Shown: in pieces, positions 28,750 through 40,526 of the stretch
How the letters are laid out: the number at the start of each line of letters is the position of its first letter
Position numbering within the stretch: the stretch's first letter is position 1
Assembly: GCA_030065935.1 (NCBI GenBank)
Contig: JASJCP010000053.1
Coordinates: forward strand, 1 to 42,546
DNA: 42,546 nucleotides
Direction of reading: 5' to 3'
Origin: Xenococcaceae cyanobacterium MO_167.B27
Lineage (GTDB): Bacteria > Cyanobacteriota > Cyanobacteriia > Cyanobacteriales > Xenococcaceae
Notes under the pieces: generated by a model
Database searches by the model: none
What the model was told of the DNA's origin: nothing
What the model saw: the letters and a program-made list of their open reading frames with translations, nothing else
Made by a program: the position numbers and the translations under genes

Positions 28750-28819
28750 CTTACTTATTCCCCAGTCTCCCCCCATATAAACTTATGTAACAATAATGCC
28801 GTCATGCTGGCTTGACATC

Positions 28820-28848
28820 TTGACAGAACCAAAAGCAACCGATAAATT
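28820..28848 (+). promoter_or_regulatory. Candidate promoter of the RHH/zinc-ycf46 unit
   Basis: TTGACA at 28820-28825 with a 17-base spacer to TAAATT at 28843-28848, 37 bases before the ATG of the 116-residue gene. A second TTGACA lies eight bases upstream (28812-28817). Assignment by consensus only. Confidence 0.4.
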
Positions 28849-28884
28849 GATATACATACCCGGGTAATTATTAAAGTTAATGTT

Positions 28885-29235
28885 ATGCAAAGCAAGCAAA
28901 AAGTAACCTTATACATACCGCCAGAACTTCATAGGAAACTAAAAATCAGAGCAGCGATAGATACAGAATCAATGTCTGCCTTAGTAGAAAAAGCTATATC
29001 CTTTTACTTACAGTATCCAGAGCAAGTAGAACAAATAGAAGCATCTGTTCAAGGTAATGTTCACCAAGTACATCTATGTCCTGAGTGTGACGCTGCTATG
29101 GTTCTGAGAAACGGCGAAATGATATCACTGAAAAATCAGCCTGGTGTAGTTAGTGAAGAGTTACCATTGCAAGTTAGAGACAGTGTGACCACTACTGACG
29201 AACTCCAAGGAGAAGAAGAGTTAGTCCCCTGTTAA
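28885..29235 (+). CDS. Ribbon-helix-helix-like protein with a Cys pair, before ycf46
   Basis: A 116-residue protein. Residues 5-45 resemble a ribbon-helix-helix DNA-binding domain: VTLYIPPELHRKLKIRAAID as strand and first helix, MSALVEKAISFYL as second helix. After a linker, HLCPECDAAM gives a CxxC pair, and the last residue is a cysteine, so metal binding by a half zinc ribbon is possible. The C-terminal 30 residues are acidic. The gene lies 63 bases upstream of ycf46 on the same strand and probably shares its transcript. A role as repressor of the unit is a guess. I do not know a named homologue. Confidence 0.78.
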   Translation: MQSKQKVTLYIPPELHRKLKIRAAIDTESMSALVEKAISFYLQYPEQVEQIEASVQGNVHQVHLCPECDAAMVLRNGEMISLKNQPGVVSEELPLQVRDSVTTTDELQGEEELVPC

Positions 29236-29298
29236 TCCCTAATATCCTAAGTTGAATAGGCGATACAAACCGCAAACCCCAAATCAAAGGTCGATGTT

Positions 29299-30810
29299 AT
29301 GAAAGAAGAGCTAAACATACTCCTACAAGCTCAATATCCTCTAATCTATCTAATAACTCCCGAAGAAGAGCGAGCAGAGCAAGCAATAGCTAAAATAACC
29401 AAAGATTATGCAGAGCATCGACAGGTATTTGTTTGGACGGTAACTCGCGGGATCGTGGAATATGGTCAGCCTCGTCAAATGAACCAACATAATACTGTAT
29501 CGCCAGAGGCAGCTTTAGAATGGGTTGTGCGTCAGAAAGACCCTGGTATATACATTTTTAAAGACTTACATCCTTTTGTTGATGGGGCGGTAGTTACAAG
29601 ATGGCTGAGAGATGCGATCGCCAGCTTTAAAGGAACAGATAAAGTTATAATCCTGATGTCTCCGATTCAGCAAATCCCCATCGAACTGGAAAAAGAAGTA
29701 GCAGTATTAGATTACCCACTACCCAACCTCAGCGAATTAGATAGAGTATTATCCTCTCACCTGAGAAAAAGTAAAAGTCGTAACATCAAAACTGAAGATC
29801 GAGAAAAACTATTAAAAGCAGCGTTAGGGCTTACTAAGGACGAAGCAGAAAAAGTCTATCGCAAAGCTCGGGTCAAAGCGGGTCGCTTGACAGAACAAGA
29901 AGTAGAAATAGTTTTATCAGAAAAGAAACAGTTAATACGACGCAACGGAATTTTAGAATATATTGAAGAAGACGAAACCATTAATTCAGTTGGTGGCTTA
30001 GAAGAATTAAAACGCTGGCTCAGACAACGCTCCGATGCTTTCACTGAAAGAGCCAGAGAATACGGACTTCCTCAACCCAAAGGAATGTTAATTTTAGGAG
30101 TTCCAGGCTGTGGTAAATCCCTAATCGCTAAAACTACCTCTCGTCTTTGGGGTTTGCCCCTACTACGTTTAGATATGGGTAGAGTATATGATGGCTCTAT
30201 GGTAGGTCGTTCCGAAGCTAACCTCCGCAATGCCCTCAAAACCGCAGAATCTATTTCTCCCGTAATCTTATTCATCGACGAACTTGATAAATCTTTCGCT
30301 GGTGGTGCAGGTTCAGGGGACTCCGATGGCGGTACTTCCAGTCGTATCTTTGGTTCATTCTTAACCTGGATGCAAGAGAAAACTTCTCCTGTGTTTGTTA
30401 TGGCTACTGCCAACCGAGTAGAAAGACTACCAGGGGAGTTCTTAAGAAAAGGAAGATTTGACGAAATTTTCTTCGTGGATTTACCAACTCCTGAAGAAAG
30501 ACAAGACATTTTTAGAATTCATCTTGGTAAAAGACGTTCTGACATTACTCGCTTCGACTTAGAACAACTAGCCAAGGTATCTGAAGGTTTTTCTGGTGCA
30601 GAAATTGAGCAAGCAATTATTGCAGCTATGTATGACGCTTTTGCTCAAGACAGAGAGTTCACGCAGCTAGATATTATTGCTGCTATCAAAGCAACTCTCC
30701 CCTTGTCTCGTACCATGACTGAGCAAGTAACGGCTCTTCGAGATTGGGCAAGGCAAAGGGCGCGACCTGCATCAGCCTCCGTTGCTGAATATCAGCGATT
30801 GGAGTTCTAA
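29299..30810 (+). CDS. ycf46: AAA+ ATPase Ycf46
   Basis: A 503-residue AAA+ protein conserved in cyanobacteria and some plastid genomes. The N-terminal domain (residues 1-220) begins with ELNILLQAQYPLIYLITPEE, the Ycf46 signature. Walker A is GVPGCGKS at about 268-275 and Walker B ILFIDELDK near 323-331. The sensor and arginine-finger region follows with RLPGEFLRKGRFDE. In Synechocystis a homologue (slr0374) has been linked to stress response and photosynthesis or CO2 use, and it lies in a small stress-responsive cluster; molecular role remains unsettled. It is followed 143 bases later by ycf35 and preceded by the RHH/zinc gene. The start has AAAGGTCGATGTT upstream. Confidence 0.93.
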   Translation: MKEELNILLQAQYPLIYLITPEEERAEQAIAKITKDYAEHRQVFVWTVTRGIVEYGQPRQMNQHNTVSPEAALEWVVRQKDPGIYIFKDLHPFVDGAVVTRWLRDAIASFKGTDKVIILMSPIQQIPIELEKEVAVLDYPLPNLSELDRVLSSHLRKSKSRNIKTEDREKLLKAALGLTKDEAEKVYRKARVKAGRLTEQEVEIVLSEKKQLIRRNGILEYIEEDETINSVGGLEELKRWLRQRSDAFTERAREYGLPQPKGMLILGVPGCGKSLIAKTTSRLWGLPLLRLDMGRVYDGSMVGRSEANLRNALKTAESISPVILFIDELDKSFAGGAGSGDSDGGTSSRIFGSFLTWMQEKTSPVFVMATANRVERLPGEFLRKGRFDEIFFVDLPTPEERQDIFRIHLGKRRSDITRFDLEQLAKVSEGFSGAEIEQAIIAAMYDAFAQDREFTQLDIIAAIKATLPLSRTMTEQVTALRDWARQRARPASASVAEYQRLEF

Positions 30811-30953
30811 AAGGCTTTCTTCCGTGATTGGCGGAAGTAAAGGCTAGCTAAATTTTGCTAGCAGTTTGTATCACACAACCGTCTTAAATTCCCAATTAAG
30901 ACAGGTAAAAAATCAAAGTTGTTGTTTAATTCTCTTCTACTGGAGGAAATCTC

Positions 30954-31304
30954 ATGTCTCACTTTAGCACTCTACGTACTAAGATCACTGACGCTGAAAT
31001 CTTAACTAACTCTCTTAGTGACCTCGGCATCAAAGTTAAAACTGAAGCTGATGTTCGTGGTTACAACGGTCAAAGAGTTCGTGCTGACATCGTAGCTGTT
31101 CTTGATGGTGAATACGATCTCGGCTGGTCTAAAAACAGTGATGGCACTTTTGATTTGATCGCTGACCTTTGGGGTGTTGCTAAAAAACACAACCAAACTG
31201 AACTCATCAATTCCATCAACCAAAAATATGCTGTTAACAAAACTTTATCTGAAGTTAAGCAGCGCGGTTTACAAAATGCCAATGTTAAATTGGTTCTTCA
31301 ATAA
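30954..31304 (+). CDS. ycf35: Ycf35 / DUF1257 protein
   Basis: A 116-residue protein of the DUF1257 family, conserved in cyanobacteria and red-algal plastids as Ycf35. The N-terminus MSHFSTLRTKITDAEIL and the middle part GYNGQRVRADIVAVL, EYDLGWSKN and FDLIADLWGV are characteristic. No enzymatic motif is known to me. GGAGGAAATCTC just before ATG 30954 gives a strong ribosome binding site. A rho-independent terminator lies 48 bases downstream. The position after ycf46 on the same strand links two plastid-type genes of unknown function, possibly as one transcription unit although the gap is 143 bases. Confidence 0.93.
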   Translation: MSHFSTLRTKITDAEILTNSLSDLGIKVKTEADVRGYNGQRVRADIVAVLDGEYDLGWSKNSDGTFDLIADLWGVAKKHNQTELINSINQKYAVNKTLSEVKQRGLQNANVKLVLQ

Positions 31305-31351: not shown

Positions 31352-31383
31352 GGGGGTTGACCAACGAGAGTCAACCCTTTTTG
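31352..31383 (+). terminator. ycf35: Rho-independent terminator after ycf35
   Basis: GGGTTGAC (31354-31361) and GTCAACCC (31370-31377) pair perfectly around an eight-base loop and are followed by five T. This is a strong terminator. Confidence 0.9.
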
Positions 31384-40208: not shown

Positions 40209-40526
40209 ATGAAAATTACTTACCGTGGTATCAGCTACGAATATAACCCACCAACAGTTGCAGTAGAAGAAGATGCTGTTGCTGGTAAATTTCGCGGACT
40301 CGACTGGCGATTCCACAACCTCAAAAAACCCCTTGTCTTACAACCACCTGTCAACTTAACTTATCGTGGTGTAGCTTATTCTAATCGTCCTACTGCGGAT
40401 CAAGAAGCAGCACCAACAAGCATTAGGGAAAAATCTCGTTGGTTGATTTTAAATCGTCAAAAAGCAGCTAAAAATCGTAATGATTCCATGTTGCGTCGTG
40501 CTGCTCATGAACTAGGTCTAGTGTAG
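40209..40526 (+). CDS. DUF4278 domain protein under glutamine riboswitch control
   Basis: A 105-residue cyanobacterial protein with an internal duplication: ITYRGISYEYNPP at residues 3-15 and LTYRGVAYSNRP near 51-62 are the two copies of the DUF4278 motif. The C-terminal third is basic and helical (NRQKAAKNRND). AATTCTCGGAGGCGAAAT before ATG 40209 gives a strong GGAGG ribosome binding site. The riboswitch upstream ties it to nitrogen status. From memory, PirA, a small PII-interacting regulator of Synechocystis arginine and ornithine metabolism, belongs to or resembles this family; that is not shown here. A role as a regulator of nitrogen assimilation is inferred. A hairpin follows the stop by 14 bases. 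Confidence 0.9.
   Translation: MKITYRGISYEYNPPTVAVEEDAVAGKFRGLDWRFHNLKKPLVLQPPVNLTYRGVAYSNRPTADQEAAPTSIREKSRWLILNRQKAAKNRNDSMLRRAAHELGLV

Follow-up and report, generated by a model that had tools for sequence, protein, structure and literature searches.

The slr0373-slr0374-slr0376 operon of a Xenococcaceae cyanobacterium carries a conserved candidate operator and a covarying RNA element

Results

Three genes on positions 1-42,546 of contig JASJCP010000053.1 of Xenococcaceae cyanobacterium MO_167.B27 (the whole stretch analyzed, hereafter the window) represent this organism's copy of the slr0373-slr0374-slr0376 stress operon of cyanobacteria, a unit that is not itself new: an slr0373-family gene comes first and is followed on the same strand by an A-type AAA gene and an Slr0376-type gene (Table 1). 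At this locus a conserved palindrome covers the presumed start of transcription, and an RNA element with covariation lies between the second and third genes. Somewhat in preference to other readings, we propose that a ribbon-helix-helix (RHH) autorepressor, possibly responsive to redox state or metals, controls the AAA+ ATPase and a DUF1257 partner, and that the RNA element would uncouple the expression of the partner. The initial annotation had described the locus as a possible functional unit of an RHH protein, Ycf46 and Ycf35; the ORF map confirmed its coordinates, the common plus strand and the gaps of 63 bases between genes 1 and 2 and 143 bases between genes 2 and 3.

Table 1. Features of the three-gene locus, in positions of the window
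Feature	Position	Strand	Basis or remark
Promoter-like site TTGACA-17-TAAATT	28820..28848	+	Conserved spacing to palindrome
Candidate RHH operator, palindrome ATACCCGGGTAA	28856..28867	+	Over the presumed transcription start, just after the -10 box
Gene 1, slr0373-family protein, 116 aa	28885..29235	+	ORF, NF052617 match
Gene 2, Ycf46-type AAA+ ATPase, A type (slr0374-like), 503 aa	29299..30810	+	ORF, AAA match
Structured RNA element	30777..30953	+	Overlaps the AAA stop codon; covariation, covariance model
Hairpins of the RNA element	~30777-30804 (within the AAA gene), 30815-30842, 30843-30862, 30878-30906	+	
GTTGTTGT	from 30918	+	3' part of the RNA element
Shine-Dalgarno GGAGGAAA	30942-30949	+	3' part of the RNA element, after GTTGTTGT
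Gene 3, Slr0376-type DUF1257 protein, 116 aa	30954..31304	+	ORF, DUF1257 match; paralogue of canonical Ycf35
Terminator-like hairpin	31352..31379	+	After gene 3

In Synechocystis PCC 6803, slr0373-slr0374-slr0376 is reported as a stress-responsive operon (Singh and Sherman, 2002; Jiang, 2015, via PMC7496141, PMC7283877 and PMC3564720), induced by iron, nitrogen, sulfur, light and low CO2 stress (PMC7496141, PMC7283877), with slr0373 and slr0376 named as being under Hik35 regulation (PMC7496141). There, slr0373 is named as one of the top-expressed genes and as sharing an operon with slr0374 (PMC3564720), and slr0376 is listed among the most strongly expressed protein-coding genes (PMC3516471). 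The slr0376 transcript is described as predominantly monocistronic and as rising on depletion of RNase E or J, and an own promoter reported by others is mentioned (PMC7283877). The 116-aa slr0376 product is counted among the proteins found only in cyanobacteria, in all or most of them (PMC2823733). In threonine-treated Microcystis, ycf46 and an slr0373-like gene are reported to be upregulated more than 11-fold (PMC12172450).

The conservation of the gene order was determined at the best 80 of 577 confirmed loci, a set skewed to close relatives because only the best were kept. Upstream of the AAA gene and on the same strand, slr0373 was found at 79 of these 80 loci (distance 37-435 bp), the contig of the 80th offering only 98 bases upstream, while a gene 3 homologue followed downstream at all 80 (88-179 bp; one cut by the contig end). 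The next commonest neighbor reached 33 of 80, so that the gene order is far from chance; some lineages share other upstream neighbors, the top three being present at 33, 27 and 25 of the 80 loci. A wider cluster with the outer genes of the window was rejected: the flavodiiron, DUF58 and aldolase genes were found at none of these best 80 loci, and a partial transglutaminase match at four, on the opposite strand and 5.3-5.4 kb upstream. Terminator-like matches in the region (four, against 2.6 in shuffles) are not clearly above chance in number.

The same pairing was observed when 117 genomes were sampled evenly across the phylum; 49 of them belong to the class of the window or nearer. An A-type AAA (77-100% identity) is present in 46 of these 49, and all 46 hold an Slr0376-type gene adjacent to it. 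The remaining three (G126, G138 and G145) are without both genes, and the small genomes G138 and G145 retain only other AAA and DUF1257 copies. G126, 99% complete and of genus g36 in the same order, is the sole order-level genome in this sample missing the two genes; its genus-mate G128 has both. We found slr0373 in 39 of 40 relatives and in all 15 A-type regions taken with wide flanks. A further 24 stretches, surrounding AAA relatives in genomes of the same phylum outside the class, contained neither slr0373 nor DUF1257; we take these genomes for non-photosynthetic lineages. Two Ycf46-type AAA matches from the same phylum but outside the class, L149 (G071) and L150 (G082), contain one internal TAG each, reflecting either an alternative code or a broken gene. 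Adjacency is thus not peculiar to this genome, and the conserved three-gene unit anticipated by the initial annotation stands; a single transcription unit is borne out only in part, given the predominantly monocistronic slr0376 transcript described in PMC7283877 and the RNA element between genes 2 and 3.

Gene 1 matched the NCBIfam slr0373 model NF052617 with an E-value of 3.1e-49 (165.6 bits, cut-off 100). It combines an RHH-like N-terminus with a CPEC motif (C65, C68) and a C-terminal LVPC (C116). Matches to Pfam RHH models lay below their cut-offs, an Arc-like PHROG was matched at E 2.3e-5, and the best RHH protein in the PDB at E 0.009. The predicted monomer (pLDDT 63.9) was without the N-terminal strand, and structure matches of the Slr0373 model were discounted because the model is too poor. 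In RHH proteins, alternate residues of the strand contact DNA; the corresponding K6, T8 and Y10 are present in 79 of 80 protein rows, the remaining row being truncated. Across the same rows C65 and C68 are invariant, C116 is found in 77 and H60 in 75. The gene 1 product is a plausible DNA-binding regulator, as the initial annotation had put forward, and its cysteines are conserved.

Gene 2 belongs to the AAA family (E 2.4e-27), and its assignment as an AAA+ ATPase of the Ycf46 type was upheld. The genome encodes a second Ycf46-type AAA (B type) with 45% identity. A tree built from 72 AAA rows placed those of the window type in one clade of 28 rows (support 100/100), separate from the second type and from the AAA proteins beside other DUF1257 genes. 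The single cysteine of gene 2, C271, lies within Walker A. The motif reads G[VI]PGCGKS in all 81 A-type rows and in 15 further A-type regions; GTGKS is found in 13 of 15 B-type rows (GCGKS in the other two) and in all five other DUF1257-adjacent AAA proteins; outside the class, GCGKS is seen in 15 of 24 rows. In Synechocystis-like genomes the Walker-A tryptic peptide is GMLILGVPGCGK, with cysteine as the tenth of 12 residues, and for the Slr0374 peptide 260-271 C269 is reported to be 91.6% reduced in the light versus 78.3% in the dark (PMC13214033). Going by position, C271 of gene 2 would correspond to this residue, which is more reduced in light.

The name Ycf35 given to gene 3 in the initial annotation had to be abandoned. 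Gene 3 scored about 83.9 bits against DUF1257, while a second DUF1257 gene of the same genome, on contig C244 (129 aa), scored 155 bits; this gene adjoins DUF2997 and an ORF with ferredoxin-like cysteine motifs, as read by eye. Canonical-type DUF1257 genes occur once per genome in all 49 class-level genomes; the score is at least 138 bits in 47 of them, 126 in G145 and 106 in G138. Gene 3 is neither the best DUF1257 match of its genome nor part of a DUF2997-ycf35-ferredoxin cluster, and is an Slr0376-type DUF1257 paralogue, the canonical Ycf35 being the gene on C244. Its identity with slr0376 rests on length (116 aa), order and neighbors. For the Slr0376 fold model (pLDDT 76.7) the best Foldseek match had an E-value of 0.053, and the best VIA match, a KA1 domain (Z 5.6; 81 aligned, rmsd 3.5), is within the range of common arrangements for this tool. 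A title-level literature search found no title on DUF1257/DUF2997.

DUF1257 genes were found beside AAA genes in five further stretches (L168, L170, L171, L179 and L203). Among 44 plasmid and phage DUF1257 matches, nine loci were inspected, namely eight plasmids and phage P-SSM2. A Ycf46-type AAA lay within the 4-kb flanks of DUF1257 in seven of the eight plasmids, Bacillus and Paenibacillus among them; for five of the seven AAA proteins the match covered almost the full profile, for the other two positions 72-496. No AAA was found in the flanks of the Treponema plasmid or of P-SSM2. For other DUF1257 genes, neither Slr0376-type nor canonical, an AAA match within 4 kb was present for at least 13 of 19 in class-level genomes and for at least one of 11 outside the class. 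The pairing is not invariable, as canonical Ycf35 and the Treponema and P-SSM2 loci are without it. The DUF1257 gene of Treponema succinifaciens plasmid pTRESU01 (L206) lies within a phage-tail-like gene run, and that of Prochlorococcus phage P-SSM2 (L210, 147690-148070) next to the DNA polymerase region. AAA relatives are carried by 57 phage records.

The exact palindrome pattern ATACCCGGGTA is present in 71 of 78 regions upstream of gene 1, where its end lies 15-32 bp ahead of the start codon, and the stretch 28800-28885, which the initial annotation had proposed for EMSA, contains it. It occurs once in the 7.02-Mb genome. Of 148 genomes of the order, 103 contain it; one site is not diagnostic by itself, since the pattern in reversed form, used as a control, has matches in a minority of these genomes as well. 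Of 31 loci retrieved with the pattern (the own genome counted), 28 had it just upstream of slr0373 and three were without slr0373; its single occurrence in the genome and its position beside slr0373 therefore fit a local autoregulator. RHH genes commonly autoregulate. Among 45 loci not selected by the pattern (some genomes counted twice), 28 carry the exact palindrome. Variants include ACCTGGGT and, in one Synechocystis-like genus, a form in which a longer centre separates ACCC and GGGT arms, a spacing not expected of a single RHH dimer. Promoter-like matches in the region (five, against 6.1 in shuffles) do not exceed chance in number, so that the promoter call rests on the conserved spacing, with TTGACA ending 30 bp before the palindrome in 55 of 71 anchored upstream regions. 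A second conserved block, roughly TAAA-AAT-TAACAA-TG-CGT, is located about 45-80 bp upstream of the palindrome (window ~28776-28811) and may bind another regulator. Among the titles listed by a literature search, none concerned the palindrome.

To characterize the gap between genes 2 and 3, 79 distinct intergenic sequences were collected, 53 of which were aligned by MAFFT with structure not used. The structure, drawn from the RNAalifold result and by eye, comprises four helices with 21 pairs and three hairpins. Across the 53 sequences 94.2% of the helix cells are paired and 14 of the 21 pairs show two-sided change, and none of 500 shuffles reached the observed value on any of five measures. 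Slid structures gave at most 57% paired cells, at most 22 two-sided cells versus 56 and at most 32 further pair types versus 35, a control that favors the drawn structure because this was drawn on the same alignment. The lowest nine-codon synonymous variation of the AAA gene lies at its 3' end (0.57 versus a mean of 0.81; the 5' end is next lowest), where a further hairpin (30777-30804) is located; in 20,000 random draws, values as low as that of the last ten codons came up twice. The 189 nucleotides at the element fold with a z-score of -5.63, and at 18 other loci the median was -3.4 (range -5.8 to -1.4).

In its own genome the covariance model found the site at E 1.7e-21, with the second-best match at 0.39. 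A matching place was found in 43 of 46 A-type genomes, 41 of them at E 1.5e-5 or better, and none in A-type genomes G114, G116 and G120; this recovery is not an independent validation because model and test genomes overlap in lineage. Seven off-site matches in the phylum sample (E 7e-5 to 9e-3) mark the noise level, and the on-site matches in G072 (4.9e-4) and G091 (0.0068) are no stronger. At the off-site match in G126, none of the three genes was found within 8 kb. A regulon of such elements was rejected on the second-best match of the own genome and the seven weak off-site matches. At 30777-30953 no Rfam family exceeded its gathering score. For two species, an element had already been predicted between slr0374 and slr0376 (PMC2662882); the broad conservation and the covariation are new beyond that prediction. 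Elsewhere in the window, a glutamine riboswitch (Rfam RF01739; 40110-40175, plus strand) lies ahead of an ORF (40209-40526, plus strand) that matches DUF4278 and, weakly at its C-terminus, the glutamine synthetase inactivation factor IF7A.

Discussion

In the model that we favor, a dimer of the Slr0373-family RHH protein would repress the operon through the palindrome over the transcription start, and stress would alter the cysteine/histidine module of gene 1 (H60, C65, C68, C116) and release the repressor. Release would yield more of the Ycf46-type AAA+ ATPase, with its putatively redox-responsive cysteine in the nucleotide-binding loop, and more Slr0376, which may act as a DUF1257 adaptor or substrate-recognition partner of the ATPase. 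The folded RNA over the AAA stop codon and the gap would uncouple Slr0376, either by RNA processing or by an own start followed by protection of the 5' end. DNA binding and sensing by gene 1 and the role of the ATPase are steps that we infer; what the analysis itself showed is the order and co-occurrence of the genes, the palindrome with its position, the covariation of the RNA and the conservation of the cysteines.

Another dedicated stress or light regulator could bind the palindrome instead; Slr0373 would then act elsewhere, either on different genes or by partnering the ATPase as a small protein. The Hik35 regulation named for slr0373 and slr0376 (PMC7496141), the further conserved block upstream and the varying spacing of the palindrome arms would agree with this, but the palindrome occurs only once in the genome and, at 28 of 31 loci found by the pattern, beside slr0373, and we regard such a regulator as rather unlikely. 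For the RNA element, a translational switch that masks the Shine-Dalgarno sequence, as opposed to a processing or stability element, might be expected from a conserved fold directly ahead of that sequence. Its pairing, however, is not above that of dinucleotide shuffles (mean 0.82 versus 0.80; 39 of 72 sequences exceed their own shuffles), which led us to reject masking and makes such a switch improbable.

There is likewise little to recommend the view that the genes are simply the plastid-type Ycf46 and Ycf35. It accords with the Ycf46 type of gene 2, the DUF1257 match of gene 3 and the use of the name Ycf46 for slr0374 in PMC7496141, and in red algae the presence or absence of plastid ycf35 and ycf46 has been linked to habitat (PMC5940233). 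Against it stand the far better DUF1257 match elsewhere in the genome, in a ycf35-fed7-like setting (PMC4284462), the second Ycf46-type AAA, and the two genomes, G138 and G145, that keep only other copies. Returning to the autorepressor model, a broader extension is conceivable, which we offer tentatively: Ycf46-type AAA+ and DUF1257 proteins may form an ancient ATPase-partner pair, spread over cyanobacterial paralogues and bacterial plasmids, of which plastid Ycf46 and Ycf35 would be survivors. The operon would then be a version gated by the Walker-A cysteine, in which an RHH autorepressor that senses metals or redox state acts at one site of the genome and the dosage of the partner is set by an RNA family not described before.

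Both the Ycf46 and the Ycf35 family have been retained in plastids without a settled function, a question that the AAA-DUF1257 pair, the one-site regulator candidate and the covarying RNA element make directly testable in Synechocystis. The correction of the name matters as well, since Slr0376-type genes may be mistaken for Ycf35.

Comparison With Known Systems

RHH autorepressors of the Arc, MetJ and CopG kinds share with gene 1 the RHH-like N-terminus, the place as first gene of the operon and a palindrome at the presumed start site; gene 1 additionally has the conserved CxxC and terminal cysteine, and its DNA binding is putative. The anti-phage ATPase IetA resembles gene 2 in the AAA domain (6e-26), but the match is confined to residues 250-485 and the NCBIfam score is 78 against a cut-off of 510, and an anti-phage role, suggested by AAA-domain similarity alone, was rejected. 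Cluster g of PMC4284462, DUF2997-ycf35-fed7, likewise holds a DUF1257 gene, but the locus of this type in the present genome, with its 129-aa Ycf35 on C244, is separate from gene 3. The closest counterpart is the Synechocystis PCC 6803 operon, with the same gene order and families and an slr0376 product of 116 aa, the length of gene 3. To the reports on that operon the present analysis adds how widely the unit is conserved, a candidate operator, covariation in the RNA element and the relation of gene 3 to DUF1257.
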